Shown in pieces: positions 6,109 through 63,447 of a DNA stretch of 64,000 nucleotides; positions within the stretch are counted from its first letter, which is position 1, and the number at the start of each line of letters is the position of its first letter. Source of the stretch: Owenia fusiformis (Eukaryota > Annelida > Polychaeta > Sabellida > Oweniidae). The notes beneath the pieces were generated by a model, which searched no databases, was not told where the DNA came from, and saw nothing but the letters and a program-made list of their open reading frames with translations. The position numbers and the translations under genes are program-made. Where the stretch lies: positions 32,989,375-33,053,374 of the forward strand of contig CAIIXF020000005.1 in NCBI GenBank assembly GCA_903813345.2. Reading direction: 5' to 3'.

Positions 6109-6232
6109 ATGCATTTAGAGTCACTAAAAAATTCTTCGCTGTTGACAAACACGTGTTTCATGTTTTGCATGAAGCTTCAAAAGTTACTACCCGATGCTCT
6201 GAAAAAGAGGTTTGTGAAGGAGACAGACACTG
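6109..6232 (+). CDS. candidate alternative first exon (phase 1)
   Basis: An ATG opens a frame of 41 codons plus one base (G) that stops exactly at a strong donor, TG|GTAAGTT, with the GT at 6233-6234. The C-terminal part, KLQKLLPDALKKRFVKETDT, looks like an amphipathic helix. The start context is poor (C at -3), and downstream in-frame ATGs at 6160 and 6169 are alternatives. The exit phase is the same as in the other short exons of this window, which is the main reason for the call. An alternative reading is an internal exon in another frame, from a weak acceptor at 6104-6105 and also open to the donor. Product not recognised. Confidence 0.3.
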
Positions 6233-6969
6233 GTAAGTTTTGGTATACTTTGATCTTGAAAATACAGATCAAAAGCGTGTTTAATTATTAGCAAATATCA
6301 TTCACATGAATGGATTACACGAGTTGTATACTTCCAATAACATAAAGATATGATGTTTTAGTGCATGTTAGTCAAATTAGTTGATTGCTTATCCATCGAG
6401 TTGTTTTTCTAAATATTGGCAAACAATTAGATGTGCAAATATGGATTAGAATTCCTACATGTTATGTTATTATCTTTAGACATGAAAAATGACTTTATCA
6501 AGAGTTACTGAATCTAAACTGCATCAAATCTAAATTGCATACAATAGTTTCATTTGTTTGGGTCCTCCTTTTTGAGATATTCCAAAACTGAATAACTCAG
6601 TTAACCTATCTCAAGTTAAACCATGGTAACTATTTTTCGAGATAACAAATCCTGGTGTTTACATTCTAAATCAAGATAGCTTGGATTTGATAAAGTGCAA
6701 AATCCTCGTTAACAAACCCTTTTTATCAAATCTCCTCCACGCAAATGTTTTGCAGTCTGAGTTTTCATGTCATGCACATTTGTTGCAATAGTAATTCTAA
6801 AAAACATTTACACAGCAGCCATTGTTGGTAAAAATAGTGAAAACAAAATAGTACTGTATAAAATATGCACAAAAATCTTCTATAGTGTGTCAAACCTACA
6901 TGGAATATTGTCCATAGCAGTGTCCTTTTTATATTTCATTATTTCCATCAATCAATGGGGCAATATCCT
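6233..6969. other. non-coding, start of a putative intron
   Basis: If 6109-6232 is a first exon, this is the beginning of its intron. No other feature is visible. Confidence 0.4.
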
Positions 6970-7384
6970 ATTTGCGAGTAGAAATAATCTTGATTTACAT
7001 CATAAAAGTTCCAAATTCAGTCGAGTTGATGTCATATTTGGAATCTACATGTGAAATTACATCTAGAAATGTGGTATTGAAAAGAGTTTATCAACTTTGA
7101 AAATTTAATTTTCTTTGAAAATGTGACTTCTAGGTCGGGGAGATTCCCCATAGACCCCATGTTGTAAAATCACAAAAATGTAAATATCTTTTCTTGTGTT
7201 GGGCATATAATATTTTCTTTTACTGGACATATTTTAATTTGTATAACTATCAGTTACATAAGGTTAATATGAAAAGTGAACCAGAAAAAACTGATGAATA
7301 TTCAAAATTTGTAATACCCTGCCGTGTTATTTCCCCCGAATCAGCCACCTGTTGGCGAAACTGGTAACTACCTTCTCGCATCTG
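6970..7384 (-). mobile_element. MITE family A, copy 1 (ends TTTGCGAGTAG / CTTCTCGCATCTG)
   Basis: This stretch matches 38532-38950 in opposite orientation over its whole length. Shared blocks include GACTTCTAGGTCGGGGAGAT, AATATGTCCAG-like sequence and the cluster ending in GGCGAAACTGGTAACTACC. The two ends are imperfect inverted repeats of each other, and the intact form is the 13 bp CAGATGCGAGTAG. No transposase is encoded, so this is a non-autonomous element of about 415 bp. I see no clear target duplication, so the superfamily stays open. Confidence 0.7.
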
Positions 7385-7835
7385 AGTTATTTGGACATCT
7401 TATTCCTTAGGAGCACTGTGTGACACATCAGGTCTGGTCCTGGAAATCAGGGGAGGTGGACAAAATCCAGCTGGAAAAGCTTTGGGCCCAAATTATGAAA
7501 TTTGTGACCCATATTCTTTAAAGTTAGTCCCATAAATAAAAATGATGCACGGTTATGTCAGTCTATATGTATTTCTTCCAGTAAATAAAGGGAGGGGAGA
7601 TTTTCGGGGATGTCTGCTGCGGGATAATTTCCATTTCATGTAAGATATATTTTTATATAAAAAACAGGATCTGTGTTGCATTATTCTAGTTATCTGAGAA
7701 TATTCATGACTTGAGTACAGGTAAATGCAAACTGATATCTGGTACACTAGGCCATCTCATTGCAGTCATATACTATGTATAGTTATAGCAAGGGCCAGAT
7801 GAAATTGTTACACATCAATGTTATTTGATTGATAA

Positions 7836-8000
7836 ATATATAAGCACTAGTGCCAAAGGGAAGGGACCAAAAGTTGGAATGGAACTTAGCAAGAAAAAAC
7901 AAACTCTAAGTGCATACCAGTCAAGAAAAACAAACCCCATATAGCCCAAAACAATGATCTAACGTGAAAAGAAACAATGTCTAATACCCCCTTTCCCCCA
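7836..8000 (+). mobile_element. repeat family B, copy 1
   Basis: About 165 bp is shared with 43491-43657 (same strand) and with 40041-40116 and 41725-41895 (opposite strand). Landmarks in order are AAGCACTAGTGCCAAAGGG, GGACCAAAAGTTG, TTAGCAAGAAAAAACAAACT, TAAGTGCATACCAGTC, GATCTAACGTGAAAAGAAAC and a C-rich tail. No coding capacity and no terminal inverted repeats were identified. The element's true ends and class are unknown. Confidence 0.6.
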
Positions 8001-8352
8001 CCATATTATCATTAAGCACTGTATGATTTCTGTATTTGTTTTACATATTGTCATACATTCTGCACAGTGGAAATATTATTTTTTACCTCAGTGCCATATC
8101 ACTGAAGGCTCTTACTAGCTCCATTTTAAAGCAGCTGTTATTATATAGTTAAAACAACAGGAAACCTGCAACTGGTTTTTGTATCAAGTCTATATCTAAT
8201 ACACTGTTCTGTTGACATTTATTACACACCGAAGGCCAGATTAAAATATTGTTATTGTTAATTTTGCATTCCCAATGGTTGTGTAGAGTATTGAATTAAT
8301 ACTTAAAACATTCATCATAAGATATCATTAAGAAAAGTATAATGTTTCAAAT

Positions 8353-8375
8353 ACAGACTGTCCCAAAAGTAACGC
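8353..8375 (+). mobile_element. solo mariner-like terminal repeat
   Basis: The string CAGACTGTCCCAAAAGTAAC follows a TA dinucleotide at 8351-8352 and resembles the outer end of mariner-type elements. I found no matching inverted end nearby and no transposase, so this may be a relic or chance. Confidence 0.25.
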
Positions 8376-8970
8376 CTATTCTTGTATTTTGTTGATTCTG
8401 CAAAAGTAACATTCAAATATTTTCCACCATATGTAAATGGGGTATTTATCAGGTCAGTGGTTTTGACAAAAATTATGATTTTAATCTTGAATTTATTCTT
8501 CATTGGCATGCTTTACTAGTTTTGGTTTATATGGTTTTAACAGTTGTTACATGTATCATGCCAAGTATTCATTCTATTCATCAAACAGAATTCATGGATA
8601 AGAAAATCTCATACGATTATCAACATTGTGTGTTTTATGCTTTTATCGCAATATGCTCTAGACTTGCTTATTTTTTCATGTCATTCACCTCTTATTGATT
8701 ATTGTCAAAGAGGGAAGTGATAATTGATGACCATTTTATTAGTTGAGATTGGGAAATGGAAAAATTCTAGAAGCATTATGCTGGATTTCTTCATAATTAC
8801 CTATATCGTGCTGTCTGCATATAAAGTTTGATTCTGAATAGTACATACTTCAAGTTTGATTTATAACTAATCATTATGAGGCTGGTAAATTGTAGCAAAT
8901 TATTGTAATATGAAGTGGTAAATCATTCATTTTCCTTTTTATTCTGTTTGAAAGTCATTTGGGATTTTTT

Positions 8971-9082
8971 TCATTAAATTGCGTTATTCCAATCAGAGTT
9001 TGAAGATATGGAGAATGCCTCCATATTCATTAAATTGCGTTATTTCAATCAGAGCTCGGGGATATGGAGAATGCCTCCATCC
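8971..9082 (+). repeat. two tandem copies of a 56 bp unit
   Basis: Units 8971-9026 and 9027-9082 both begin TCATTAAATTGCGTTATT and end GATATGGAGAATGCCTCCAT. The end of the unit contains an inverted repeat, ATATGGAG/CTCCATAT, and resembles the segment that precedes the (CCGT)n tract in the rolling-circle-like elements at 10446 and 34159. It is most likely a duplicated 5' fragment of that family. Confidence 0.7.
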
Positions 9083-9152
9083 ATCTGTCTGTGTATCTGT
9101 CCTTTCATTATCTGTTCGACTTTCCATCCATCCGTTCGTCCATCCATCCATA
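9076..9152 (+). repeat. (CCAT/CCGT)n-type microsatellite
   Basis: This is a degenerate tetranucleotide tract rich in CCAT, CTGT and CCGT steps. It directly follows the 56 bp duplication and matches the microsatellite position in the elements at 10446 and 34159. The array of longer repeats that normally follows is absent, so this is a truncated copy. Confidence 0.6.
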
Positions 9153-10009
9153 TGCCATATGTAAATACAAGTTCTTCATGTCCAGATATGTTATGTATTG
9201 AAGCATGAGGCAGTGTTAAATTTATTCAAATATGTCTGCCATTTTTAATAGTTTAGGCCATTTTCTTGTGTCATTTTATGTTATAACTCAAAAACCACTA
9301 AAATGACATTTTAATTTCAAATTCATTATGTAAATACTGGTACATGCAAGAATGAATGTTCTTTTGGCATTTAATTCATTGAGGATGATAATCATTTTGA
9401 GAAATGATTTTTAGCAATCTGACATGTATAAAATGTTCTATGGCACGTGCTACTCTGTGGTGGTTGATAAATATTTCTCACAGCCAGTATTATTTAGAGA
9501 GTGTGAAATCATGAATATCGTTCTTTGTTTCATTAGTGAATTGCATAGAAAAGTCATGGTTATTTAATATTCATTCCCATTGGACACATGAAAATCATAC
9601 CCATTAAACATATGAATATTGCAGGTTGTCACATTTATTATGTCACATTTAGCTGACAAGGTTATATTTTCTGAGTTATAAGGCACCTAGTGAGTAATAT
9701 ATCTATAGGGTAGTAATCCTCACCAATAAATCAATGTCTGATTATGTGCATCACAGTGCAACACAGGTTCCTACTATTACTGCAGTACATATCTAGTTAT
9801 TAGTTCTTGCTGAGGTTTAGGAGATTGCCTATAAGGTGCAATGATCCATAGCAATTTATTGTTCCATTAAAGTTCAAGTTTATCTTAGTATCCTTCATAG
9901 TTTATCTTAGTGTCCTTCATGATCAGTTGTAATCAGAAATTACAGCTACATTGCTCAATTAGGGAGATATTGTCAACCTGTAAATGCAAACCTCTCTAAG
10001 ATATAGAGG
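9153..10009. other. AT-rich stretch with one short tandem duplication
   Basis: I see no gene. A 22 bp unit (AGTTTATCTTAG, one base, TCCTTCAT core) is repeated twice at 9877-9898 and 9899-9920. Confidence 0.5.
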
Positions 10010-10410
10010 TTCTTGTATGAGTACCGGTGCAAGATCGTCCATTCTTGATGAGCTTTGATAATTCTTCTTTTATCGAGTCGAAGACGAGATAAAGAAACAT
10101 TATCAAAGCGAGTACAGGTACAAGAAAGTTGTTATCCTATGACTCTAAATTATGCCATATTTTCATATTTTATGATCAAAGTGAGTGAAAATAGCTTCAA
10201 ATCAATGGAACTCTTTCAATTGTTATGACATCATAACAATGATGTAGAGTATACATGGCTATGCGTGGCAACTAAGTCCTATTGTTATGACGTCACAACT
10301 TATTTTTGTAGAATGAGCTTTGATACTCATAGCAACAATGTATCCGTTGTCATGTTCCTGATGTTTATAAACATGTGATGTCATAAGTAAATCTCATCTT
10401 GCACCTGTGA
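10010..10410 (+). mobile_element. hairpin-capped non-autonomous element (GGTGCAAGAT family)
   Basis: The left side holds a long imperfect hairpin at 10052-10109. Its arms begin GCTTTGATAAT and end ATTATCAAAGC, and its apex is GTCGAAGAC. GGTGCAAGAT at 10026-10035 is repeated in inverse at 10396-10405 as ATCTTGCACC. The interior has several TGACRTCA-like palindromes, one of them exact at 10288-10295. The plan (hairpin with a CGAAG apex, subterminal inverted repeats, T-rich 3' end, no coding) resembles the rolling-circle-like element that begins 40 bp downstream, but the sequence family is different. The exact ends are uncertain. Confidence 0.45.
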
Positions 10411-10488
10411 CTTTTTAGGATAAAAGATGGCAATATCTTGCATCTTTGTTATCCCATCGAACTAAGTTCGGAGGGATATAGGAAACGC

Positions 10489-10553
10489 CTCCGTCCGTCC
10501 GTCCGTCTGTACATACGTCCATACGTCCGTCCGTCTGTTCATCCGTCCATCCG
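10489..10553 (+). repeat. (CCGT)n microsatellite inside H1
   Basis: Four-base steps of CCGT, CTGT, CCAT and ACGT follow the 5' hairpin. The copy at 34199 has the same tract in the same place. Confidence 0.85.
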
Positions 10554-10559
10554 GGCAAT

Positions 10560-11530
10560 AAATCAAATACCGTTGGCCCGATTTTGTTCATATTTTGTAC
10601 ACATATACCCTATGGGAGTAGAAGTTCTGCTCGAAAAAAAATTTTCAAAATGGCCGCTCATTTTAAAATGGCGGCCATTTTAGTGACGATTTTACAGTAA
10701 TTTAGGTGCAATATGTAAAACTGTAATAGCAATATGTTTTAAATGTAAAAAATTATAAAGGACATTAATAATGCTACAAATTTAGATATTAAAGAAGCAC
10801 ATGGCAGCCATCTTGAAAAATGGCGGCCTTTACTCGTCATTTTACGATTTTTGCTGCAACTCAAAAAATAGTGGAGCGATTTTGTTCATATTTGGTATGT
10901 GAATACTATAAGCATTGCACACTGTCTAAAGACACTTTTGGTAGAAAGCGGCTATTTTGAAAAATGGCCACCATTTTAACGTATTTTACTATAACTCAAA
11001 AAGTAGTGGAGCGATTTTGTTCATATTTGGTATGTGAATACTATAAGCATGGCACACTGTCCTATGACACTTTTGGTAGAAGGCAGCCATTTTGAAATTT
11101 TTTTTTGAAAAATGGCCGCCATTTTAACATATTTTACTTTAACTCGAAAAGTAGTGGAGCGATTTTGTTCATATTTGGTATGTGAATACTATAAGCATGG
11201 CACACTGTCCTATGACACTTTTGGTAGAAGGCCGCCATTTTGAAAACAATTTTGAAAAAAGCCGCCATTTTAACGTATTTTACTATAACTCGAAAAGTAG
11301 TGGAGCGATTTGTTCATATTTGGTATGTGAATACTATAAGCATGGCACACTGTCTATTTCTAATGACGCTTTTGGTAGAAGGTGGCCATTTTGAAAAATT
11401 GTCGCCATTTTAACATATTTTACTATAACTCGAAAAGTAGTGGAGCGATTTTTTTCATATTTGATATGTGAATACTTTAAGCATGGCACATTGTCTAATA
11501 AAACTTTGGGGAGTAGTCGGCCATTTTTAT
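10560..11530 (+). repeat. about seven tandem 140-150 bp repeats inside H1
   Basis: Each unit has, in order, an AAAATGGCxGCCATTTT block, TATTTTACTATAACTCGAAA, AGTAGTGGAGCGATTTTG, TTCATATTTGGTATGTGAAT, an ATAAGCATGGCACACTGTC block and CACTTTTGGTAGAAGG. Copies near 10860-11410 are the most alike, and the outer copies are more diverged. The ATGGCGGC core resembles a YY1 binding site. Confidence 0.85.
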
Positions 11531-11752
11531 GTGTGTTATTTTACAATACGTGTACGATTTTTCAAAAATTTTAGAGTTGGCTACTTAAAAGCATATTATT
11601 TCTTCTGATGACAACTTGGCTAGTGAGCAACCATTTTGAAAATGGTGGCCTTTCTGGTGTGTTGTTTTATGATATTTGCACTTCGTTTGTAAAAATGCCA
11701 GCCATTTCTATTCGATGGGATTCGCTACGCTTTGGCGTTGCAATTGTTCTGG

Positions 11753-14269
11753 TTAGTCACATGAGAAAAAGCAATTTTTGCTACACATTGATATTCACTT
11801 ATAAATTAATCTGTGATCCCAATGATAGATGATTGTTTCCTTTTTGAGAAACTTATATTTATACCTTGAGTACTGTATTCACATTTAGAGCCAATGCAAG
11901 TGTACTTGATACAATTACATCATGTAAAATGAAGTGTTATAATACAGTATACAAATTGTATTTTGCATTCAGTGTTCATAAAGATGTTCTATTATACTGC
12001 TGTATATACACACCATTTAGGATATTTCAAAGTGTAATTCCTTGGATAAATGTATCTTTCTTGACAATAATTGAAATGCTGTTTTCAAGACAGCTGTGAT
12101 ATGGAATGACATGTTCCTTCTCCAGACAGTAATCCTCAGATGATTAAAGGACATTTTATTCAGCAGAGCACTTTGACTGAAACTTAATGAATCCTAGTTC
12201 ACTCTCAACATCCGTTTTCCTAATCAATGTACACATTTACAGCATCAGACATATTACATGTTATGTATTTAAAATTGTTACATTGTGGACTTTGCATGCC
12301 CAAATATCCTCAGGTCATCTCAGGTTGCCTCAACATCAATTCTTAAAGTGTAAAATACCTTCATTATTCACAGGATTCATTCGATAAGGGAAATGTTATA
12401 GAGGTCTGTCAAGGGTTTGCTTTTAATGAAATGAATCAGTCTCAGTGTAAGAATAAGAATATGTAAAACTCCATAAAAGAATAAAGATGTCGCCCTGTGC
12501 TATTAAGCTAATTTTTCAGCCACTCAATCTCAGTGCATAGTTAGTTATCAACAGCTTTTGTTCGCGGAACAAATAGAGTAATGATGAGAAAACGTTTCTT
12601 TAGTAGAGCTATTCTTCAATTCCTGAACTCAGGGAATAGTTTAAATACTGAGAGATCAATAGTCATTTCTTGAGAGTTATCAATCACGTTCATGGATTGA
12701 TGTTTGATATCCTCTTATAAACTGGTTAATGGAAATATAATGTAACACCCAACCTGCCATATGATCACATTTCTAAATTATATTTCTCACTAAGTGATTT
12801 TTTATGAAACCTTTTATATCAATACCAATCTTTATGTACAGTGAACACTTGAGATGACCTTGGTCTAAATATATTTTATATCTTAATCAAAACTATTCTT
12901 GATTGTAGTGATATCTGAAATGTCTTGAAAGGAATTGACAAATGGATCAATTAGACTTATTTCTAAGATACCATGTCTTTTTACTTTGATTAAACTATAT
13001 AATTATGATAATGGTTCAATTGTTAATAGTGAGATATTTCCTATTTCTCTTTAGCTTTTTTATTTGAGCAACATTATGAATGGTTGGTGTCAACATTGAG
13101 TTCTTCCTTCATTAAAAGCTAAACTATCAGCATCAGTATATTTCATTTTCTTATAAAGATATGTAACGAGAAAGTTAACAACAATTGTTCAGAGCCATTT
13201 TGAATCATTTCCTCTACCATCAATGATGATCTTTGGTGAGACAATGAATTGATAATAATGCTTAAAGAAAAATATTTTTGAAAATAGATGTCAGGCAGTA
13301 TCATAGCAGATTATTTTACTATCCCATTGATAGATGTCAGTCTATCTTTGTGTGATGAGTAAAATATTACTTATCTCCAATAACGTTTCTAGGTTTAAGC
13401 CACATTAATTTGAATCCTCACAAAAAATTCATAAAATAAATCCATAAAATGGTGAAAATAAATACTTGTTGTTTGTTTGTCTAATTTCATTAGCCTTTAG
13501 CAATTATCAATGTTAATGAACCATATTTATTTTCAAGTATTGGAGAGAAACAGCATTCAAAAACAAAATATCTTTGTAACTTGTAATATAATATAATTTA
13601 TTTGGTAAATGCACTGTATATCATCTCTTATCAAATATGAATATTACTTTTCATTTATAATCCAAGTCTATTTTGGGCTTTCTCTATAAACTGACTGGAA
13701 TCTATATTGAATTGATGGGTGTCTATGTTCAGAGAATTGAGTACCAAAGTTGAATCACTTTTTTATTAGGTAAAACAGTATATTTTGGGGAAAGGTAAAA
13801 AAAATTTAATGGCTCAAGATTGTGTTGTTATCACATCGGTTCAATTTCTTGATTAATATAATTGGGTGTTATAAATTGTGTAAAGTATGCATTTCATGAG
13901 CCTATTTCTCTTGGATAATATCTACAGTACATCAAAGAATGCAACCAAACTAGTGCAGGTATATTGTTGGATTTTAATGTCTCCCAGAATACGAGTGCTT
14001 TGGTGAATGAATATTAAATGTTCCAAAAATTAAATCCTTTTTCATCATGATCTCCCTACGAGTAATTATTGAGGCATATTCATGAAAAGTAATCAAGCAT
14101 GTTATGAAAGAAGTTTCAACTGAAATTATCCTAATAACGTGAGTGTAATTTACAGTTTGTTAATACATTTTACTGTGACTTTGTTGACTCCTGATCATCA
14201 GACATTCTATTTAGATAATTTGTTAACTTGTTTTGTGCAGTCCATTATGTTGATGATTCAGTGATCAGC
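11753..14269. other. AT-rich non-coding stretch
   Basis: I see no gene, repeat or transposon end that I can support. ATG ATT-type chance frames around 11866 and 12187 look random in composition. A five-codon ATG frame ends at a GTAAGA site at 12447 and is too short to call. Confidence 0.5.
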
Positions 14270-15640: not shown

Positions 15641-15686
15641 ATTACCAATATTATGCACTTTAAAAGGTTGAAAAAAGCATTTTATT

Positions 15687-15735
15687 ATGATAACCAAAAC
15701 AACAAAAGATCTTGTAAAACAACCAAGAAACAAGG
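15687..15735 (+). CDS. candidate alternative first exon (phase 1)
   Basis: An ATG with A at -3 opens 16 codons plus one base (G), ending at AAG G|GTGAGC with the GT at 15736-15737. The peptide is MITKTTKDLVKQPRNK, which is basic and hydrophilic. Exit phase and final base agree with the exons at 18254, 31379 and 36088, so it could join the same downstream exon. The donor is GTGAGC rather than GTAAGT. One short open frame of this size could easily be chance, so the call rests on the series. Function unknown. Confidence 0.3.
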
Positions 15736-15739
15736 GTGA

Positions 15740-17039
15740 GCACAATCAACACAATTGATACAAGTCAGACATATATAAACATGAAATCAAGCTCATGTTA
15801 TACATGGGAACTTGCTTCTTGTTTTATATTGAGTCATCACGTTGTCTATATTGTTGTCATTCTGGACTATTGCATTTTAGTCTATCATATTAGTTTATCG
15901 CATTTTACTGTCACCCAATATTCCTTTTATAGCTATCCTAAAATGATAGCTACTTACTACACTTCAAAGGCCACCGAAGCTTTTAAGGGGCATTAGATTC
16001 CCCTGAAGATTTCTTAATAAGAATAAACATGAAAGGTTCATATATATGAAAATTATGTCATGTATTCTCTGTAAAAATAGCTTTTGTTGTACTGTTTCAA
16101 TTAACTGTCAAGAGATTAGAAAATTTGATGACAGGTATATGGTGATCAATTTCTGTTTTTGAGATTTTTGAGAAATTAGGATAAATTGATTTTGTAATTT
16201 GTATTTCTTTTTTTTCATTGTTTTCTAGATTCTAGTTCAACACTTTGATTATTGAATTGTTACATTTGTATTTTGTTTTCCTGATATTTTCTAATGGCTA
16301 AAAACAATTTAAACCATGGCTTATGTTAGTTGATAGAACAACATGGAATAATAACACTTGTAATACATGTATTATCTTAAATTGGTAGAAAGATTACAAA
16401 GTGAACTAGTTACGGAAAAGCACTTATGAAGTGATTAGATTAAAAGTGCTCTCATCTGACAAGAACTCACTTACTTGACTTGATAATTTCATTAGCACAG
16501 ATTGTAGATTACCCTGACCTACATTTGTTTTGCAATGTTGTGATTCTGTTTGATGTGTGGTTCTCTAAGGTACTCTAATCAGAATTGATAAAAGCAAACA
16601 AAGCAAAAGGTCCATAAAAATGTGAAAATGGATTATGAGCAGAAAATCTAAGGCATAAAAAATGTTGTGTTGGTTCACTGAAAATATGGAATAAAGAATT
16701 TTTTATATTACAATGGTGCCACGTGGTTTAGTTCAATGGTCACTCAGGACTCCCATAGTTATAACTCATTAGTTCTTTAGATTATCTTAGTAATAACATA
16801 TTAGCCAATAACACAAAACCATGACATTCCAACTGTGTGCACCCGACAACAAATGGTGCCATTTTTTAAAATATAGAATTATCATGCACTGTTGTTATGG
16901 CAACCTCTAGCTTCAGAGAATATCTGGCTGGATATACAAATCAATGTTTTGAGAAATAATCATGTCTTGCTAGTCTTAACTTAAAAGTTGAATTCCCCTG
17001 ATTACATATTGGAACAAAAATATATTTCCTTTTTAGTAT
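15740..17039. other. AT-rich non-coding stretch
   Basis: I see nothing supportable beyond AT-rich sequence. It is a putative intron of the first-exon series. Confidence 0.4.
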
Positions 17040-18200: not shown

Positions 18201-18253
18201 AGGGAATAAGGTCTCCTTACCACTAAAAAGCATTACAAAAATAATAACACAAA

Positions 18254-18320
18254 ATGAACCACGTGGATTTTTCAAACTGGGTGCATATGATCACCAAACT
18301 CATGACACCTGCAAAGAAAG
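18254..18320 (+). CDS. alternative first exon, NWxxxITKLMT type (phase 1)
   Basis: An ATG (A at -3) opens 22 codons plus one base (G), ending at AAG|GTAAGAG. The C-terminal part is NWVHMITKLMTPAKK. It aligns with the exon at 52896-52953, 34 kb downstream: both have D, F/L, N-W, then ITKLMT, then KK, and both leave the codon after one base. At DNA level the pair differs at the third bases of the conserved Asn, Thr and Leu codons (AAC/AAT, ACC/ACT, CTC/CTT), the pattern expected if the peptide is under selection. I therefore treat both as real duplicated first exons of one gene. The peptide is probably an amphipathic, basic helix. The gene is unidentified because the common downstream exon is outside the window. 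A duplicated TATA-like segment lies just upstream. Confidence 0.6.
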
Positions 18321-22468: not shown

Positions 22469-23566
22469 GTACCCCACACACAATTTTGTCGCCTACTTTG
22501 ATGTGTTGTAGAAAAATATCCAATAAGAGTTTTCTCATGAAATTTGGCATACATTAAATTGAAACAATTTGTGACACTCAAATTTTTTTGTTTGTGGTAA
22601 TATGACTTCACCACAATTTGACTTCAGTTTCTAAATTGCTACGCATTTACAGATTTGACCTAAATCAAGCTAAATTTTGAAACAATTTGTAACAAATTGA
22701 TTACAAAAACAATTTGAATATTCTGGTCAATCCTATCCTATTAAACACCATTATAATCCACTGGTAAAAAAAACTGAACCAAGCAGGAGTGACTGTTACA
22801 ATGTTATGATGTTACCCCTGAAAGTTCACATGTTAAATCCATGTGAATCATTTCCAACAAAAGGTAAGCCGTCGGTGGCCACCTGTGAGGTATTGGGTGA
22901 ATATGGCCTCCCGATCGTAGGCCAATGGAAAATTGATTGCAAGCTCACTGTTAATAATGCCTCAATTGACTTAAACAAAATACAACCATTTTCTTGAGAT
23001 TTTATGAGATGCGAACTATTGGAAAGGATTTTTTAATCAAGTGGGACAGTAGGAAATGCTGTAGGGGTAGGATGGTATAGAAATTCAAGCAGGGATGTCT
23101 TTCAGTGCCCTGATAAACCTTTTTAGACTTAAAGCCAACAAATCATATGATACATGCACCTGTCCATGTATTGAAAGTATTAAAAAGGGTCTTCACTCTT
23201 AAACAATAATAAAATCACACTTACAATATTCCTATTTAGGAGTTAAACATCTCCAACACATAGTAACAGTATCTTAAGAGAACAGACAAACCATATGTAA
23301 TGCAATAGGTTTGTGATCAAAATGTAATCAAAATGATTTAAACTCTCTTTAAAACTGCAAAACTGGAAATTTTCGTCGAATTTTGTTAAAACATGAATAT
23401 TTTAAAATTGCTTGTTTTTCGTCAATATTACTTAAATTTCCAAATAAAAAAATTTGAGTGTCACAAAATGTTTCAAGTTAAAGTATGCCAAATTTTATAA
23501 ACAAACTCTTTTTGGATATTTTTCTACAATACATCAAAGTAGGCGACAAAATTGTGTGTGGGGTAC
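22469..23566. mobile_element. 1.1 kb element with 125 bp terminal inverted repeats, TA-flanked
   Basis: The left arm is 22469-22593 and the right arm 23443-23566. They are about 85-90% alike, both starting GTACCCCACACACAATTTTG when read inward and including TCGCCTACTTTGATGT and GACACTCAAATTTTTTT. TA precedes the left end (22467-22468) and follows the right end (23567-23568), as expected for the Tc1/mariner superfamily. No transposase is recognisable. A 63-codon frame at 22806-22997 lies inside, and its first 58 bases run from an ATG to AAG|GTAAGCC in phase 1, which I treat as probable coincidence because of its location. Confidence 0.75.
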
Positions 23567-31378: not shown

Positions 31379-31412
31379 ATGGGAAACACTGTGGAAAACA
31401 TGTTTCAACAAG
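31379..31412 (+). CDS. alternative first exon MGNTVENMFQQ (phase 1)
   Basis: An ATG in a strong context (A at -3, G at +4) opens 11 codons plus one base (G), ending at AAG|GTAAGTG, a perfect donor consensus. The peptide MGNTVENMFQQ starts Met-Gly-Asn, the arrangement seen in N-myristoylated proteins, although Glu at position 6 is not favourable for the transferase. Phase and last base agree with the exons at 15687, 18254 and 36088. PKA catalytic subunits also have alternative, sometimes MGN-starting, first exons joined in phase 1, so that gene is one candidate. Nothing else in the window supports it. Confidence 0.5.
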
Positions 31413-34158: not shown

Positions 34159-35300
34159 TGTTATCCCACCGAACGAAGTTCGAGGGGGATATAGAAAAGC
34201 TGTCCATCCATCCCTCCGTCCGTTCATGTGTCCAGGCATTAACTCAAATACCAGTTGACATATTTCATATTTCAAATTTTATAGGCTTATGCCTTATGGG
34301 TGTAGGACCTCCACTCGAGAAGGAATTTTCAATATGGCTGCTAAATTCAAAATGGCGGCCATTTTTCAGAAAAAATTTAATCTTTAATAACTCAAATACT
34401 AGTAGATGGATTTGGTTCAAATTTTATATGCTGTTGCCTGGGTACAAAGAGCTTTGCTCAAGAAGACATTTTCAAGATGGCCACCAAATTTGGATTTGGT
34501 TCAAATTTTACATGCTGATGCCTAGGGACATGGGAGCTCTGCTCGAGAAGGGATTTTCAAGATGGCCACTAAGTTCAAAATGGCCACCATTTTTCATAAA
34601 AGAACGTAACCTTTGATAACTCAAATATCAGTTGATGGATTTCGTTCAAATTCTATATGCTGATGCCTCGAGACAAAGAAGTTCTGCAAAGAAGACATTT
34701 CCAAGATGGCCACTGAATTTCAAAATGGCCACCATTTTTTGTAAAAAAACGTAGTCATTGATAACTCAAATACCAGTGGATGGATTTGGTTCCAATTTTA
34801 TATGCTGATGTTTAGGGAGAAAGGAAATCTTCTTCAGAAGAAATTTCAAAGGTGTCAGCAGAATTTAAAAATGGGTGCCATTTTTCATAAAAAAGGTAAT
34901 CTTTGATAACTCAAATACCATTGGACGGATTTACTTCAAATTTTATAAACTGATGCCGAGAGATAAAGGAGCTCTGCTTGAGACGAAATTTTCAAGGTGA
35001 CTGCTATTTATCAAAATCTCTGCCATTTTCCATTAAACATGTAATCCTTGATAAATCAAGTACCAGTTGACGGATTTTGATTATATATGCTGATGCCTTG
35101 GGACATAAGAGCTCTGCTCAAGAAGAAACCTAAAGATGACAGCTGAATTTCAAAATGGCAACCATGTTTCATAAGAACATAACCTTTGATAATTCAAATA
35201 CCAGTGGATGGATTTGGCTCAAATTTTATATGGCTGCTATTTATCAAAACATGTTTTGTTCGGTGGGATTTGCTACTCCGTGGAGTTGCTGTTTTTCTAG
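34159..35300 (+). mobile_element. Helitron/HINE-like non-autonomous element, copy H2
   Basis: The 5' hairpin at 34162-34191 (TATCCCACCGAAC GAA GTTCGAGGGGGATA) is followed by a short CCAT/CCGT tract at 34199-34232. About seven tandem units of 140-150 bp follow, with GATAACTCAAATACCAGT(G/T)G, ATGGATTTGGTTCAAATTTT, ATATGCTGATGCC, GCTCTGCT and CAAGATGGCCACC. The 3' end has GTTCGGTGGGAT (35258-35269), an exact inverse of 34163-34174, then the hairpin GCTACTCC GT GGAGTTGC, seven bases, CTAG (35297-35300) and TT. The internal repeat differs from that of H1 while the ends are shared. A 164-codon frame at 34122-34616 is repeat-derived, not a gene. Confidence 0.75.
34360..35230 (+). repeat. about seven tandem 140-150 bp repeats inside H2
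   Basis: Units restart near 34383, 34490 (a partial copy), 34611, 34759, 34903, 35047 and 35186 with AACTCAAATACCAGT or its variants. Each includes an AAAATGGC(C/G)(A/G)CCATTTTT block. Divergence between units is high, so the array is older than or differently maintained from that in H1. Confidence 0.75.
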
Positions 35301-36067: not shown

Positions 36068-36145
36068 GAGACACCATTCTTTTTATTATGGTGTCTGTTG
36101 TTTGCGCTTTGAGGAAAACAAAAGATATAATTATGAGCAATTCAG
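36068..36145 (+). CDS. candidate first coding exon with ATG at 36088 (phase 1)
   Basis: GGTTTTCTTAG|GAGACACC gives a plausible acceptor at 36067, and TTCAG|GTAAGTT a strong donor at 36146. Within this exon an ATG at 36088 in strong context (A at -3, G at +4) opens 19 codons plus one base (G): MVSVVCALRKTKDIIMSNS. The N-terminal third is hydrophobic and the rest basic. The frame is also open back to the acceptor, so it could be an internal exon, but the phase-1 exit and the ATG match the first-exon series. If the acceptor is used, an upstream non-coding exon would exist. Function unknown. Confidence 0.4.
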
Positions 36146-44906: not shown

Positions 44907-44949
44907 ATGTTTGCTGTAATTTCTAAAAGCATTGGTGGAGCAAAAAGCA
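44907..44949 (+). CDS. alternative first exon MFAVISKSIGGAKS (phase 1)
   Basis: An ATG with A at -3 opens 14 codons plus one base (A), ending at GCA|GTAAGAG. The peptide MFAVISKSIGGAKS is short, with a hydrophobic start and Ser/Gly/Lys end. The phase equals that of the other first exons. The last base is A, as in the exon at 52896, whereas the others end in G, so the residue at the junction would differ between isoforms. Product unknown. Confidence 0.4.
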
Positions 44950-52775: not shown

Positions 52776-52895
52776 AGATACATATATACAATAATAAGTG
52801 CAGAAAGATTTTTCACTTGTGTGAACTAAGGTAACCTCATGCATGAGTTTTAAACAAACAAATTTGAATAACTGATACAACAGCAGCTTATCAAC

Positions 52896-52953
52896 ATGGA
52901 TTTACAAAATTGGATGCAACAAATCACTAAACTTATGACAAAAGAGAAAAAAA
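52896..52953 (+). CDS. alternative first exon MDLQNWMQQITKLMTKEKK (phase 1)
   Basis: An ATG in strong context (A at -3, G at +4) opens 19 codons plus one base (A), ending at AAA|GTAAGTC. The peptide MDLQNWMQQITKLMTKEKK is homologous to the exon at 18254-18320: D-(L/F)-x-N-W, three residues, ITKLMT, two residues, KK. The donor position is equivalent. Silent third-base differences in Asn, Thr and Leu codons argue for selection on the peptide. I infer a duplicated first exon with its own promoter (TATA box at 52768). The helix is amphipathic and basic at its end. The gene is not identified; the next exon lies outside the window. Confidence 0.6.
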
Positions 52954-55279: not shown

Positions 55280-56027
55280 TATCACACCAAACTAGTTCTT
55301 ACCCGTTCTTGGCAGTCATACGAAAAAGTTGTAAAATGGGCTCAATCTGGCTGTGGTCGGGAAATATGTCTAAAACAATTAGCTACTTTGTTCATAAACA
55401 GTCTTCAATACGTCCATCTCATTCGCAGTTCTTTCAGGTCGCACCACGTACCTTAGGCTAGAAGGTCATCATGACCTGATTACAGAACGGCATGGTCGCC
55501 ATTATCGAATTTTGAATCGATTCAAAATTCTAAATCACATTCCCCGTCCGAGAAAGTCCATGAAGTTCGTAAACAGACCGTAGAACATTGTAGCTATGTT
55601 CATTCCGTTCGCACACAGTTTAAAACCAGTTTTGAAGGACACAGTGGCAACTTGCTTGGTGTGATAGCTATATTTTTGCTAACTCATTGATAAATATGTT
55701 CTTAATCAGTTTTAACCCGTTTGCAATTAGTTCTACCTCGTTCTCAATACGTCCTCAGACAGTTCAACTTGTTGTAAAAACGTCCCTAGTAGGATTGAAG
55801 TACGACGGTTCCATTCGTAGTACTCATAGTTGTCACTCGTTCTAATTGTAGAACATGATGACCAAGAGAACATTTTGAGCATGTTTTAAGTTCTAGAGGA
55901 CATTCCCATTCGAGTATGTTCGATGAAGTTTGTAAATAGACCCCAAATGGTTCTAAGTACGTCCAGTCCGTTCAAACACAGTTGAAGCCCGTTTTCAAGA
56001 ACGTTGTGAGAACTAGTTTGGTGTGAT
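55280..56027. mobile_element. TATCACACCAAACTAGTTCT element with internal duplication
   Basis: The left end TATCACACCAAACTAGTTCT is inverted at the right end, GAACTAGTTTGGTGTGAT (56010-56027). About 125 bp at the right (55903-56027) is a diverged direct copy of 55545-55665, which also ends in TTGGTGTGAT, so the element is a partial tandem dimer or has captured a second right end. It is full of GTTC, CGTCC and TACGTCC strings and is clearly richer in G, C and CpG than its flanks. The short frames at 55235-55461 are by-products. No transposase is seen. Confidence 0.7.
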
Positions 56028-57120
56028 TAAGGGTTATGTACATTTGTGTACTGTTTGGAAACTTATTGCACAAATCTAAAGCAAAAATACCAATATAAGA
56101 AAAAATCAGAAAATGAAAGCATTTTTATCAAAATAAATGGATTGCCCCTTAATCAGTTAATTGTATTCTGCTATTAAAGAATGCTTCATTTACACCACCA
56201 TGGGAGCCCACCACTTAATGATACCAGCATAGCAATTTCATCTTCTTGGTTGAGAGATTACATTAGATATGTATTATTGCATGCAGACTGTACTTCATTT
56301 AGATTGAGAAAATAATTGCAGTCAGCTAGTTTATAAAAATAAATTGCGTGCTTGCTGGTTTAATACAGACTCATCTTCATAAACAAAAAAAATGTAACAT
56401 AGGTCTTTCACCAATAACCAAGACCTCCTTGTGGCATTTCAGTTGTACAGGATATTGCTTTTATCATTCTATAGATATTCTTTGCAGATTATGCATTTGA
56501 AGAGAAAAATTGTCCAATATTATTTTAGAAGGAATGGAGCAAAAATATTTGCCATATGTGACAATTTTACCTAATGGATGATTCTTATTTGGTCATATCT
56601 TAAAATGTGCTTTGAGCAGCATCAGTAAAACAATTGCCTTGATATGGTGTCTCAAACAATTATGTGATTGCAGATGTTTTGATGTCTCAATTGGTATATT
56701 GTGATTGAGTTGAATGTTATATTATAAATTCATTACTGCCAGTTTCAATAACAGATTAAGACCTGTTATTACAGATGAATTGTGCAATTAGGTAGGTTAA
56801 GATTCCCAAGGTGAAGTATTGCTCCTATCCAGTCTGGTATTATTGGACTTTATGCAACAGTTTTCTGTTTGTAACATCCTGCCATCACAAGACAGATGAT
56901 AGTAATGTAAAATGGCAATTTTATGAATCGAACCAGAAATGAAAAAATACAACGAATTGAAGAGATTCTGGAAAAATGGAAAAAACAAGGAGATTACCAG
57001 CAAACAATATAGTAACAGATCTAAATTGAAACATATGTCCAATTTTCAGTTCATTGTTTCTCCAGTATGTAATGATGATGGTCTGAGTGAGAACACCTGC
57101 AGGCTCTTTGGGTTAACTGG
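56028..57120. other. AT-rich stretch with one small open frame
   Basis: I see no firm gene. An ATG at 56923 opens a 29-codon frame to TAG at 57010-57012 with a strongly helical, charged product (NEKIQRIEEILEKWKKQGDY). It has no splice signals that I can support and may be a transposon protein scrap. Confidence 0.3.
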
Positions 57121-57210
57121 TTGTAAGGGTTTGCGTTTCATTGCAAGGGTTTGTGTTTTAGTGTAAGAGTGTGTTTTAGTGTAGGAGTGTGTTTTAGTGT
57201 AAGAGTTTAT
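57121..57210 (+). repeat. minisatellite, 18-20 bp GTGTAAGAGTGTGTTTTA unit
   Basis: About four units of GTGTA(A/G)GAGTGTGTTTTA and GGGTTTGYGTTT variants lie in a row. The three best units (57160-57205) differ by one base. Confidence 0.75.
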
Positions 57211-60200
57211 GTAATTTGTTCTATAAAAGTGTGTTGCAAATTCTCTATGAATGTCTCGAAACCTACATCTCCCTGTTTTTCTAATTGCTTTTCCCTGACA
57301 TGATGAACTATCACAATGTAATTATAAACTTATTACCCACATTTGAATGGTATTGTTACAAATAATATTATGTAAAATATCATGTTCCCATCTGCTGACC
57401 AACGGACGTCATAGAATATTATGGATAATCGAAAGATCTGATTTATAGTCATTTTTGTTCATTATTTATTAATTCTATGTTGTTTATGACTAGATATTGG
57501 ATTATATGCATGCAATATGGCAGGTATAACACTCTTATCTATCCTTACTAAAAAAATATTAATGAGAATCTTTGAAATTCTAAATGTTATTCTGTTGCTT
57601 TAACATTCAAGGTTCAAGATTGTCTCTCATATCTGGGATTTAATAAATCATATTAAGATTCTTGTTGTTGCCAGAAGAATTTGAGAATTGTACATTAATG
57701 ATGAAGAAATAAATAATTGATAACTTTTATCATTTGGTTAATGACAGTGTGGCCCCTATCCAAGATATATCTCATAAATACAATAGGAACATTAGGTATT
57801 CAGGATAGTGAAAAAACAATTGTTGATGAAGCCTACTGATTAGAAAGCAAAAGAACATAAATTAATCCTTATATTAAACATATCAGCCAAAAAAGCAAGT
57901 CACAAAAATATTCCACGATACCACAAAACTCACCCTACCAAAGATAAAACATTTTAAATATTGATAAATTGGACATTGGACAGCTCCTAATAAAGGATTA
58001 ACAAATGACCCTTAACATTTCTGAATGTGATATTAACGTAACATCTTCACAGATCTTGATTAGATAGTTGGTCAGTGGCATTGATCATGAATAATAGGCA
58101 AATATGCACACAGATGTGTCTTTTGGTTAAGCTGATGGTTCCAAATTGAATTCTCGTTCATGATGATAATATAGACACACAACCAATGTCTTGAAACATT
58201 AGATTCAAAATTGGTTATATATCAAATATCTTTACTATAATTGAAATTATTGACAATTTAAGTCAATAATCTTTGCTTCTGACAGTTGGAATTGGTGATC
58301 TAGGCACAACATTGATTTATCCAGGTCATCTGCTCGAACTTATTAACTTTTCAATTACTTAATCTTGGTTAGCAATATGCCTTTATAAAGAGACAAAAAT
58401 CAGAACATCTGTACATTGGTTTTCATATTCAAAATCATGAAATTTCATTTCTTAAATAACAGTGATAAAAGAGAAAAACAAACATACATATTCCATGCAA
58501 GACATTAAATAATCAGTTTTCTAAGAAATAGATAGCAACTTCTATTCAGTAAGCATATGATAGGTTAGACCTTCTTTTACTAGAGGTCACTACTGTAGCC
58601 GTTCAAATCACAAGAAATAGTTTGTGGCCTACTGAGAGCCCAAAGCAGCATATTGCAGGAAGTAGACCAGATTAATTCAGATACAGGTGGTAAATCAATG
58701 GAAACATTTATGCAATGTTATATCATGGGTGAAATAAATCCACAAATTCCCCAGAGAAAATCTGAAAAGTAGATGACCAATAATGTCTTACTCATTAGAG
58801 ACATTTCACAGTTATTAGTGTTCCACATATTCCAAACTGTTACACAATAACAATTTTATACCAGGTGAAAAGCATTATCAACATATTGGACCTCTTAAAA
58901 AGTAAATCAACTTAACATTTTCTGTACTATCCTGTACCATACCATTCCATACTACACTATAATATACCATACTATACTATACTAAAAAATCACCACCAGT
59001 TGTACAAGACATTCTAGGCATACAAAGCAGGTGTTCAAAATTACCCCCATGGCATACCTTTAAAAAACAATGTAAACACTAGTTATATGATATTAGACAT
59101 TATGTCTGTTTTATGAAGATGTTAACATTCTATAGTCATACAGGAATTGACTAAACTAAGAGGAAATACGTATTTTAGTATTAACAGTACAAATTTATCA
59201 TGGAATAGAAATTCCACCTCCAAGACCTTTTAGTTATTGGTTGAACCTATTAGTTAGCTAGCAAAGGTGATATTTATTTCAACTTCTTGTTTCTTTCTTG
59301 ATTAATGAAAGCTTGTGTTGGGCGTGCTTAAGTGTAGGTTACTCTGACATTGCAACTTGGCATAATGTGTAGATGGAATATTGATTTACCTTAGAGTTCA
59401 TTATTTAAAGTATATAACATTTCACATTGGTTATTTTATATGGTATAAAAAATGTTATGTTTTTTGTGGCTTTGTCTGTTACACTCTACTGGTTCATAAT
59501 TAACTGGGATTTCCAAACATTGCATCTGTAATGTAATGTCAGTGAAATAACCATAACCAGTATATTAACAAATTATTGATACTTCATTTCATACAATACT
59601 GAAACATCTCATTTGAAACACTCCTTATGGAATGGTAGATAGTAGGCCTCTGAAATATCCCTCGACCTTATTAGTTGTATGATAGATGGCAAACATGCAA
59701 TTCAGAAATAGATTGGAGTTGTATATCTTTGAACTTTGGATAATTAATAGATGGCAGTACACTTATCTCTCGTCTTAACAGAAAATGTAGGTTACCGAAA
59801 TAATAATACAACATTGACTTGTTTTCATATATTTAAACACTTTATCATACTTATAAGAGCTAATCGATTGCAAAATAAGACAAATACAAAACAAAACAAA
59901 TATCCTAACAAACAAGTTATATCACAACTGTTTTCATTGTTTTACTTACTTATACCAGAAATTCTTCTTTATTGAAAGAGACAGATAGTACCTCATCCTT
60001 GGTGACTTTAATTATTGATGAAGCTAAGATAAATCATTTGTTGTTGAGCCTCTGCAGCAAATTCTCTATTGGCGTCAATGTTTATGGGGCTCCAAATTTC
60101 TGTTAAGCTTATTATTAGGAGGATATTAGAGTGAATAGGCCTCAAAATTAGTCAATTATTAGATATTAAAACTTTTTAATACAAAATGAACTTTCTGTTT

Positions 60201-61619
60201 TGTATTTGTTTGAAAATGAAAATGTATCACCAAGCAAGCTAATGTTAAACTTCTTACAAAATTTCAAAAAATATTTATGTTTAATGACAAATGATATTTT
60301 TTTATATTTATTACATAGGAATTAACACAAATGTAAACTAAAGTTCATCTGTTTAAGTGTTTTTGAAAGACCTTATTTATAGAAAAATATGATAATGTAA
60401 ATATATGGTTATAAATGGATATTTTGAAAAAAAAAGTTTTTTCTGCTCTTTTATAGGTCACCAAATTGCCTTGTGATTGGAACAAAGGAACCGTTTCTTC
60501 AATTTAGCTACCAAATTGTTAATTAACTTTACAGAGCCCCACCACTTTTCAGTAATAAATAATGCTTAAAGTATACCCAAATGCATTTCTAATAATCAAC
60601 AATGGCTTTACTAACCATAGCTCAAGCAATATATATACCCCTTGTGGTTTTCTGTCTTTGTAATTTGATTATGGAGACCATTAAATAATGCATAAGATAG
60701 ATGAAGACACTCTCTACATTTTCTGATATTGCCAAGTGGGTTCTCTACCAAACAATCTAGCGTTCATCCATAATAGTTTATACAGAAGGTTATTTTACTT
60801 TTTACTAGTTCTTTGATATGTAGAGTAATCATACTCTTTAACTCATTCTTCAATTCTTGCTCATTGTTTCTGACTTTAATATTTTGCAATATATAATTTT
60901 TACTTCATAGTGTTACAATCAGACCATATCGTGAATATTACTGATATCTATATTGACAGATCCAGTGGCATATAGACCAACCAAATTCCTTGGCTAATAT
61001 TTACTACAGGCACTAGATATATTGAAAGAATATTTCATAGCACTAGGAGTACAGTATTTGGTGATATACTCATTAAATTTTGACTTTTTAGGCCAGAAGT
61101 TTAAGTTGCTTAATTAATATAATAATGGATATGACAATAGAAATAAAATTTCTTATTATAATCTACCTACATGGTGCAGAGGTACAAATGTTGGTCTAAT
61201 TTGATCTGTGTGAAAAGATTGTATGATTCTTTTACTCTTAAACTAAACATGGTCTAAAAAAATTTCTTTAATTTGGCAATTTTGTATTTTTGGGCCTATT
61301 GCTGTCTATTTAATTTGGCTTTTTCTAGTGTCCCCGACATTCTCCTGTCAAACAAAAATCAAAATACTCATTGTCCGTGTTATTGATGAACAATTTCTTC
61401 AATATTTCTTGTTTGTATAAATTTATTCAATATTTCTTGTTGTTTCTATCAATTTAAACGGCCCGGCAATTTTGGTATCTTTTTTTATAACTTGAAATTC
61501 ACCAAATGCAAAATATGCCATATTCCTGGGCAATTTGGCTCCTATTAAAATTGGCAATTTATTTAATTTGCCCGGCCAACTTAAAACACTCGCCAAATTA
61601 AAGACAAATACAGTAATAA
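57211..61619. other. AT-rich stretch, one microsatellite
   Basis: I see no gene. 58924-58985 is a degenerate (ACTAT/ACCAT)n pentanucleotide tract. TTCAATATTTCTTGTT is repeated at 61397 and 61426. A frame at 59751 (+) has chance-like composition. Confidence 0.4.
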
Positions 61620-61983
61620 GAAACATATTACACTTTCTTTTGACAATTTGGCTAGTTAGTGGCCATTTTAAAAAATGGGCACCATTTTTATTTGTGCTAA
61701 TTTACATTGTTGGCTATAAATGGAAAAGCAGGGGAGCAGTAAGAAATTTTATATGTGAAAACTTAAAAGAATATTACACTATTTAATGACAATTTAGCTA
61801 ATAGGCAGCCATTTTTATGTGTTATTTTATGTTTTGCCATAACTGGAAAATGGTTGAGTGATTTTGTTGATTATGTAAATACTTAGAAGCGTATGACAAT
61901 TTTGCTAATAGTAGTCCAGTTTCAAAAATGGCAGCCATGGCTGTTCACTGGGATTTGCTACGTTTGGTGTTGCAGTTATCTAG
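61620..61983 (+). mobile_element. Helitron/HINE-like element, copy H3 (5'-truncated)
   Basis: About two and a half diverged repeat units with GACAATTTGGCTAGTTAG, GGCCATTTTAAAAAATGG and AATGGCAGCCAT blocks precede the family 3' end: TTCACTGGGAT, hairpin GCTACG TTTGG TGTTGC, six bases, CTAG (61980-61983) and TT. The 5' hairpin and (CCGT)n tract are not found. Some repeats from 61460 on (GGCAATTTGG, GCCCGGC) may also belong to it. The frame 61535-61786 is repeat-derived. Confidence 0.6.
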
Positions 61984-63419
61984 TTGGAAATTGATCGGTT
62001 ATTAAGTATGATCAGTATTAAATCATATACACATTCATTTTGTCATATTGTATCAAGATATGCAGTATTACCACATAAGGCTCATCAGCTATGGAGAAAA
62101 AGAATGTCCTCCAGAAAACTGTATAGCCTTAACAGCTACTAACATAAACATGATTTGGAGTTTTTTTCTTTAATGCTAATGAGGTAACAGTGGATGAACA
62201 GGGGTCTGTGGTCCTTAATTGATATGTAGGGTTGAGGCTCATTTAAAGATGATAAATGATGCAATCAAAGCTCATAGCTTATCGCATAACAGCATGTAAC
62301 AAAATTAATGTTGACACTTTTCAGAACTCTGTTATTGTTACAAATTAGTGGAAACCCTTGCCGAAAGAAAAGAATGATTAACACAATCTTGTGTAATCTT
62401 CATGTCTATTTATCCTTATGCTTTTATTGATTATAAGAGAAATGAATTGATATTTCTGGTCATCTAAACATTATAGTTATCGAAGATTTAAGATGCAAAA
62501 ATGTCCAAATTCATAAGAGGCAGGGCTTTCATTAGCAACAGGCAACATGTTATTTTCACTGGTTGTTTTCAAAAAATCACCTGTTGTTTTTAGGGTATTT
62601 TCAACTATTCCATGTTAAATTTATGATTTCCATTAATTCTGCCTGTTGTTTTCATTTATTTAGCCTGTTGTGAGAAATTCTAGTGCAATCCCTGAGAGGG
62701 CATCTGGTTTTTCAAAGAATATTGTAAAGAATATTGTTAATAATGATGATTTTAATTTGGTTTAAAATGTTGTTCTTTTGAAATTTCCAATTGTGTAACT
62801 TCAATACATGAGAAACATTTAGTTAAAGCACCTCTTGAGTATCTTCTGCAGCTGTACATGTGGAAGATGCTGACAAAAAGTCAATAAACCTTAGTGAACA
62901 TTCATATTTTCATGATGTATTATTGTTCATACATGTATTGTAATTAATTGATCCTATTTTCCAAACTAAGACTAATGACACATGTACATGTATGACTGCA
63001 CACACATATTCAGTTGACGACAAAGTATACCTGTCTCTTCTTTTAATATATGCATTACTTTCTTACATGCAAGTCTTAATCAATACTTGGATGCTAATGT
63101 TAGAATCAGTGGATCACTTATTAGATAACAAAATATCCCAAGGCATCATATAATAAAATTGATAATTTTAAAATGCTCATCGATCCAGTATTACCCATAT
63201 CGATCCTGGAATAAATTTAAGTATTTTTTACTTAGTAGATGAGTAGAGTCTGTGTGTAAGTGAAACATTTGATTGCTACCTCTTTGGATATACTTCATAT
63301 AAATTCATGGAGCTTCCATCTTGTTGATTCACAACTTCATGAACAAGCAGCTTAATTGCAGGTCAATGAGTAGCACACATATTTAATTCTATTGAATTAA
63401 CTCGATCTCTTTATTTTAA
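61984..63419. other. AT-rich stretch with a CCTGTTGTTTT repeat
   Basis: I see no gene. Around 62553-62670 the string CTGTTGTTTT or GGTTGTTTTC occurs four times and CCTGTTG five times in about 120 bases, probably an old transposon fragment. Confidence 0.35.
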
Positions 63420-63447
63420 ATGGAAATTGCTAACTTATTTGCATTGG
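63420..63447 (+). CDS. weak candidate alternative first exon (phase 1)
   Basis: An ATG (G at +4 but T at -3) opens nine codons plus one base (G), ending at TTGG|GTAAGAT: MEIANLFAL. The phase fits the series, but the frame is so short that chance is quite possible. It is listed because it would be the most 3' member in the window. Confidence 0.2.

Follow-up and report, generated by a model that had tools for sequence, protein, structure and literature searches.

A probable KChIP (KCNIP-type) gene with several short alternative first exons and a tripled EF-hand 1 exon in an invertebrate genome

Here, we describe a stretch of 64,000 nucleotides (nt) from the genome of Owenia fusiformis (bases 32989375-33053374 of contig C5 in a 498 Mb assembly; hereafter, the window), which most probably represents the 5' part of a KChIP (KCNIP-type) gene of an invertebrate with several short alternative first exons. 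We put the probability of this reading at roughly 0.86, and it holds even if not all of the eight candidate sites in the window are real. Flanks of 20 kb on the left and 100 kb on the right were added to the analysis; positions above 64000 continue the numbering of the window, and negative positions lie in the left flank.

The initial annotation had proposed one plus-strand gene whose short first exons all join a common phase-1 exon to the right of base 64000. Such an exon was found on the predicted side, strand, and phase at 65480-65604, 1.5 kb beyond the window, and the proposal stands in this respect; what cannot be kept is the accompanying set of 12 candidates among 27 donors, which cannot all be real because several further candidates in the window are repeats. 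The exons of this gene (gene A) were located by tblastn with a KChIP core and are as follows.

65480-65604, plus strand: gene A exon 2, 125 nt; acceptor ttttgctttcag/AC, phase 1
68444-68513, plus strand: gene A exon 3a, 70 nt
68919-68988, plus strand: gene A exon 3b, 70 nt
72256-72325, plus strand: gene A exon 3c, 70 nt
73504-73574, plus strand: gene A exon 4, 71 nt
73758-73825, plus strand: gene A exon 5, 68 nt
73966-74110, plus strand: gene A exon 6, 145 nt
74976-75038, plus strand: gene A exon 7, 63 nt
77065-77112, plus strand: gene A exon 8, 48 nt, containing the stop codon

The internal common exons have AG/GT borders. Given the acceptor of exon 2, the joined codon would be Asp after a phase-1 donor that ends in G and Asn after one that ends in A, and the protein would continue with NDLDDLEMQVV.

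When the spliced core was compared with PDB by phmmer, 12 KChIP chains came first (E 3.6e-81 to 9.4e-74; best matches calsenilin/KChIP3, KChIP2, KChIP4, and KChIP1), followed by NCS-1 at 1.4e-51. Among the neuronal calcium sensors (NCS), the core is thus nearest to KChIP1-4, which places it in the KChIP subfamily, and Pfam finds EF-hand_1 in three stretches (E 2.8e-21) as well as EF-hand_7 (1.3e-19). With a first exon included in the query, six of the seven chains that reach there align from residue 41-42, which is the exon 1/2 border; the seventh, KChIP2 7w6s, has a weak start at residue 28, and the five other chains are shorter constructs. The Shal N-terminal family and PF11879, which we take to be the Kv4 C-terminal region, each have a single match in the genome; the two matches share a strand of contig C5 and are separated by 103 kb, consistent with one Kv4 gene in the genome.

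Upstream of this core, the eight plus-strand donors named by the initial annotation all bear out its description, in that a frame opened by an ATG runs without a stop to each donor and is cut there after the first base of a codon. They are given here with a ninth, related exon just right of the window; "self-match only" refers to a search of the genome with the eight exons as queries.

6109..6232, plus strand: candidate first exon 1, MHLESLKNSSLLTNTCFMFCMKLQKLLPDALKKRFVKETDT, phase-1 donor ctg/GTAAGT; self-match only
15687..15735, plus strand: candidate first exon 2, MITKTTKDLVKQPRNK, donor agg/GTGAGC; self-match only
18254..18320, plus strand: putative first exon 3, MNHVDFSNWVHMITKLMTPAKK, donor aag/GTAAGA; NW/TKLMT family; self-match only (DNA)
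31379..31412, plus strand: putative first exon 4, MGNTVENMFQQ, donor aag/GTAAGT; MGN-type start; self-match only (DNA)
36088..36145, plus strand: candidate first exon 5, MVSVVCALRKTKDIIMSNS, donor cag/GTAAGT; self-match only
44907..44949, plus strand: candidate first exon 6, MFAVISKSIGGAKS, donor gca/GTAAGA; self-match only
52896..52953, plus strand: putative first exon 7, MDLQNWMQQITKLMTKEKK, donor aaa/GTAAGT; NW/TKLMT family; self-match only (DNA)
63420..63447, plus strand: candidate first exon 8, MEIANLFAL, donor tgg/GTAAGA; self-match only
64268-64334, plus strand: putative first exon 9, right of the window, MADLSNWLNTVTKMMTPNAKKG, phase 1, donor GTATGT; NW/TKLMT family

The eight exons measure 124, 49, 67, 34, 58, 43, 58, and 28 nt, all 1 mod 3, and each has an in-frame stop 0-11 codons upstream of its ATG. 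An A stands at -3 in six of the eight, or in seven of nine when exon 64268-64334 (ATG context AACAATGG) is counted. Queried against the genome, with all eight candidates scored, they returned eight matches, each of an exon to itself; this search passes over very common words.

Three of the nine exons are related to one another. The pair 18254-18320 and 52896-52953 scores 61, where the next best among about 3,400 candidate pairs scores 38 (shuffle-based p 1.4e-7 uncorrected, 5e-4 corrected), and the three pairs of the trio score 61, 72, and 56 against shuffle maxima of 37, 48, and 44 (5,000 shuffles each). For the first of these pairs, synonymous divergence (dS) is 1.6 and nonsynonymous divergence (dN) 0.30 over 19 codons. 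The 200 nt upstream are unalike in two of the three pairs, and so are the downstream flanks of 18254 and 52896, the one pair compared. Since the flanks are mostly unalike while the peptides are homologous, the coding part appears to have been kept as the rest diverged. We regard it as nearly certain, judging from these alignments, that 18320, 52953, and 64334 belong to one exon family of gene A. The trio peptides are cationic and amphipathic, with a hydrophobic moment of 0.59-0.66 (0.35-0.77 over all candidates, with no control), and could lie on the membrane or in the KChIP groove.

A second KChIP gene (gene B) lies on the minus strand to the right of gene A, tail-to-tail with it, and the cores of the two share 136 of 181 residues.

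113244-113120, minus strand: gene B exon 2
112914-112845, minus strand: gene B exon 3a, 70 nt
111947-111878, minus strand: gene B exon 3b, 70 nt
110680-110611, minus strand: gene B exon 3c, 70 nt
108921-108851, minus strand: gene B exon 4
108022-107810, minus strand: gene B exons 5 and 6, fused
107683-107621, minus strand: gene B exon 7
Start at 100194, minus strand: tentative last exon of gene B, DDMISQSMAVLDTRL
139825-139759, minus strand: gene B first-exon candidate, MLLVKLFFKKTMKRIFDSFGKK
132481-132454, minus strand: gene B first-exon candidate, MGNSVANKA, donor cag/GTAAGA, phase 1
123136-123073, minus strand: gene B first-exon candidate, MFKVDLSVKFAYMLKPLPTKS

Exon 3, which encodes EF-hand 1 (EF-1), is present in each gene as three intact tandem copies of 70 nt, and all six copies have AG/GT borders and are entered in phase 0 and left in phase 1. 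A transcript with two copies or none would therefore shift frame, and the copies are predicted to be mutually exclusive, with the exclusion enforced by the frame itself. Change is mostly synonymous between A3a and A3b (proportion of synonymous differences, pS, 1.0; of nonsynonymous differences, pN, 0.13) and between A3a and B3c (pS 0.94, pN 0.10); in pairs with A3c, B3a, or B3b, the constraint is less clear (pN 0.28-0.53, pS 0.55-0.91). A3a is identical to A3b and to B3c at 18 of 23 positions each, and B3a is nearest to B3b (12 of 23). These identities hint at a separate tripling in each gene, on 23 codons that are too few to settle it.

Both genes also have an MGN-type phase-1 start, MGNTVENMFQQ in gene A and MGNSVANKA in gene B (shuffle fraction 0.001). 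When three gene B candidates were each compared with the nine gene A exons (27 comparisons), the shuffle fraction fell below 0.02 twice, for the MGN pair and for gene B 123072 against 18321; the latter (0.003) is suggestive only. The usual myristoylation pattern has a small residue four after Gly2, and MGNSVA of gene B fits it, unlike MGNTVE of gene A.

The nine sites differ in strength. Exons 18320, 31412, and 52953 are well supported as first exons, with 31412 very likely a real one, and 36145 is likely to be. For 6232, 44949, and 63447, frame, donor, and single copy alone make a real first exon possible to likely. The start position of exon 6109-6232 is uncertain because of the C at -3, and further in-frame ATGs stand at 6160 and 6169. 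Exon 15735 is doubtful, and the weakest of the eight, because its donor also ends a longer phase-2 frame of 37 codons. In addition, a phase-1 ATG frame at -9986 to -9920 (MYSIVTSIRSSIRRRSRRGKKG, before donor gag/GTAAGA; self-match only among the matches listed) is possibly one more first exon.

The alternative that survives best is a narrowing of our reading, not a replacement for it: only a few first exons would be real (the NW/TKLMT trio, MGN, perhaps 36145), and the other named sites would be chance frames ending at chance donors. We take this seriously, at somewhat under even odds. Past its first 200 bases, the plus strand of the window has 65 GTRAG sites, of which 16 end a phase-1 frame of 9-41 codons (14 distinct starts, as two donor pairs have a common ATG), so that the initial count of about 12 in 27 donors was not reproduced. 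Random positions show such a frame at a rate of 15.6% (binomial p 0.04), and first-order Markov sequence at 14.0% (standard deviation 4.3). This modest excess fits a small number of real exons, as do the competing frame at 15735 and the lack of any paralogue found for 6232, 15735, 36145, 44949, and 63447.

The strong donors point the other way. We scored donors with a matrix of the general consensus, and among the nine that reach at least 10, a phase-1 frame precedes seven, a phase-0 frame none, and a phase-2 frame two. Third-order simulations (n=60) give a phase-1 rate of 0.168 (p 1e-4), and seven was reached in none of the 60; with thresholds of 8, 9, and 10, the simulated p is 4e-4, 9e-4, and 1e-4. 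The excess over simulated sequence is clear at strong donors (7/9 vs 0.168) and modest over GTRAG sites at large. It persists when the repeats at 22864 and 23830 are taken out (5/7 in phase 1, p 0.002; the two strong donors without a phase-1 frame, 1037 and 28341, lie outside the repeat test). Five of the eight named sites belong to this strong-donor set, with 44949, 52953, and 63447 scoring below 9, and none of the eight matches anything but itself, which sets them apart from three candidates in the window that had not been named. Ahead of gene B, five of eight strong donors are in phase 1, compared with 2/11 and 3/8 on the antisense strands, which for both genes together makes 12/17 sense against 5/19 antisense (p 0.01).

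A different arrangement, which we consider unlikely, would make the short exons internal ones, preceded at a distance by a first exon that is non-coding, with one promoter, many N-termini, and translation from whichever exon is included. Upstream acceptors are possible, and a TATA-like element precedes only three of the nine exons. Exons 18254 and 64268, however, have a common 15-base TATA-like stretch upstream, with a score reached by 11 of 500 shuffles, and vertebrate KChIP genes have multiple start sites, as part of PMC3973911 describes. Far less probable still is that each homologous exon opens its own KChIP gene in a tandem series of copies: the region has undergone duplication, gene B being a full paralogue and exon 3 being tripled in both genes, but core exons have no significant match in the window on either strand among the matches listed, and the core search of the genome itself finds nearby only the A and B exons right of 64000.

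Repeat tests other than the eight-exon query list the best 40 candidates only. The phase-1 frames at 22864, 38398, and 23830, at 119470 in gene B, and at -11932 and -11436 in the left flank were rejected as first exons because they lie inside dispersed repeats. The gene B candidate 138546 was dropped by eye as retroelement-like, with Pfam giving no confirmation, and 151830, which has a partial copy of 82% on C1, was counted neither for nor against. The six candidates in repeats would speak for the slimmest alternative, in which transposable elements bearing donor-like sites gave rise to the series; for the eight named exons, the fact that each matches only itself refutes it at the sensitivity of that search.

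Several observations weigh against alternative first exons as we read them. The six candidates in dispersed repeats mean that a phase-1 frame before a good donor can also come about where it serves no function. Without 22864, 23830, 119470, and 138546 (the last removed by eye), the contrast between sense and antisense strands falls to 8/13 against 5/19 (p 0.05), with the antisense side not repeat-filtered. The motif TATAWAWR occurs upstream of three of nine first exons and of 11.6% of all ATGs in the window, which is weak for separate promoters, and five of the eight named exons are, as said, without a paralogue found. The donor of exon 64268-64334 is weak (matrix score 3.8), and MGNTVE of gene A does not fit the myristoylation pattern, having Glu at the position of the small residue. 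A genome-wide search with the 18254 peptide found itself (E 4e-10), the 64268 member (E 0.3), and nothing else; because it missed 52896, its reach is limited. Finally, a search of the 184 kb region with five N-terminal stretches of vertebrate KChIPs yielded nothing convincing (best E 0.54), and the resemblance of ALKKRFVK in exon 6232 to ALKQRFLK in KChIP2 (E 3.8) is only a lead.

From the sequences, phases, homology, and copy numbers given above, we infer how promoters, splicing, and function may fit together. Several alternative first exons over about 58 kb would each be transcribed, probably from a promoter of their own, and each would supply an ATG, 9-41 residues, and a phase-1 donor. Because a first exon can do without an acceptor, any that lie further downstream in a longer transcript would be skipped. 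Each donor would be spliced to the common acceptor that comes first, at 65480 (phase 1), and an Asp or Asn codon would thereby be completed ahead of NDLDDLEM. The KChIP body and EF-hands would then be encoded at seven common exon positions, with one of the three exon 3 copies chosen. As a single exon 3 per transcript causes no frameshift, one gene could pair its choice of N-terminus with its choice of EF-1. NCS proteins have a degenerate EF-1, according to part of PMC6104694, so the choice of exon 3 would alter a binding surface and not calcium binding. The N-termini (the cationic amphipathic trio, MGN, and others) would most likely set membrane attachment, trafficking, and the effect on Kv4/Shal gating. 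We give about even odds to the fullest form of this scheme, a combinatorial KChIP locus in which some nine first exons in gene A and some three in gene B are each combined with three EF-1 exons, for about 27 forms of gene A by itself. The two linked genes would in this way multiply the auxiliary subunit of the channel in an animal with one Kv4 gene found.

In the protocadherin and UGT1A clusters, a number of variable first exons are joined by splicing to downstream exons that they have in common. The DPP6 and DPP10 genes are described likewise in part of PMC3973911. Unlike in all of these, the variable exons here are very short and, the trio excepted, dissimilar. Closer to hand, the same part of PMC3973911 reports that multiple start sites and optional 5' exons in vertebrate KChIP genes yield 17 proteins from four genes in mammals, and that the N-terminal class of a protein (cytoplasmic, myristoylated, palmitoylated, or transmembrane) determines how it associates with membranes and affects gating. 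Vertebrate KCNIP1-4 join variable 5' exons to a common EF-hand core (PMC3973911, in part), an arrangement that the sequence anatomy here fits; the cores can be aligned over nearly their full length, and homology begins at the exon 1/2 border. Unlike in KCNIP1-4, there are about nine candidate first exons in one gene, three of them mutually duplicate, exon 3 is tripled, two genes stand tail-to-tail, and the five vertebrate N-terminal stretches compared have no convincing counterpart.

Mutually exclusive, tandem-duplicated exons are known in ion-channel genes (PMC9741552, in part), and the exon 3 copies resemble such clusters in being adjacent, homologous, and equal in length (70 nt) and phases. 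They differ in belonging to the auxiliary subunit of a channel, in encoding EF-hand 1, and in numbering three copies in each of two paralogues. Some caution is needed, as the same source, in the part on which we rely, lists a tandem-duplicated exon event in human KCNIP4 with its position not stated. Among the top-ranked results in the open-licence literature, we found no report of a KChIP gene from an invertebrate in which first exons are so numerous or EF-1 exons are mutually exclusive, and the portion of the review PMC10377897 available to us mentions neither exons nor invertebrates. Alternative first exons are known for vertebrate KChIPs; less to be expected is that the EF-1 exon is tripled.

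Some further features of the region can be recorded. Between genes A and B, two direct repeats of 2,634 bp (77869-80502 and 85387-88020) are 100% identical and enclose a minus-strand open reading frame (ORF) of 945 amino acids at 82115-84949, which by eye has the look of a gag with a zinc knuckle; they are probably a recent insertion of long terminal repeat type. The window itself has a GC content of 32% and CpG depletion. Rfam and tRNA scans gave no matches, nor did a COX1 search, and Pfam found no family at cut-off in ten ORFs of the window, including five of the seven of at least 100 amino acids. A plus-strand open frame of 95 codons at 3735-4019 has a protein-like, coiled-coil-like composition and likewise no Pfam family at cut-off. 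Tandem arrays at 10858-11527 and 34271-35232, with units of about 145-148 bp and related flanks, probably form one repeat family. The left flank carries two long minus-strand ORFs at -19513 to -16629, presumably resembling an integrase with chromodomain and a Polinton-type ATPase.

A gene with its coding core beyond the window can be recognized in raw sequence by keeping account of reading phases. If our reading is true, the N-terminal "tool kit" of vertebrate-type KChIPs would be present in an invertebrate as well, elaborated there by duplicated tiny first exons and by mutually exclusive EF-1 exons. Much of the isoform diversity would then reside in the calcium-sensor subunit and not in the channel, and it would become possible to ask directly which regions of KChIP tune the gating of Kv4.

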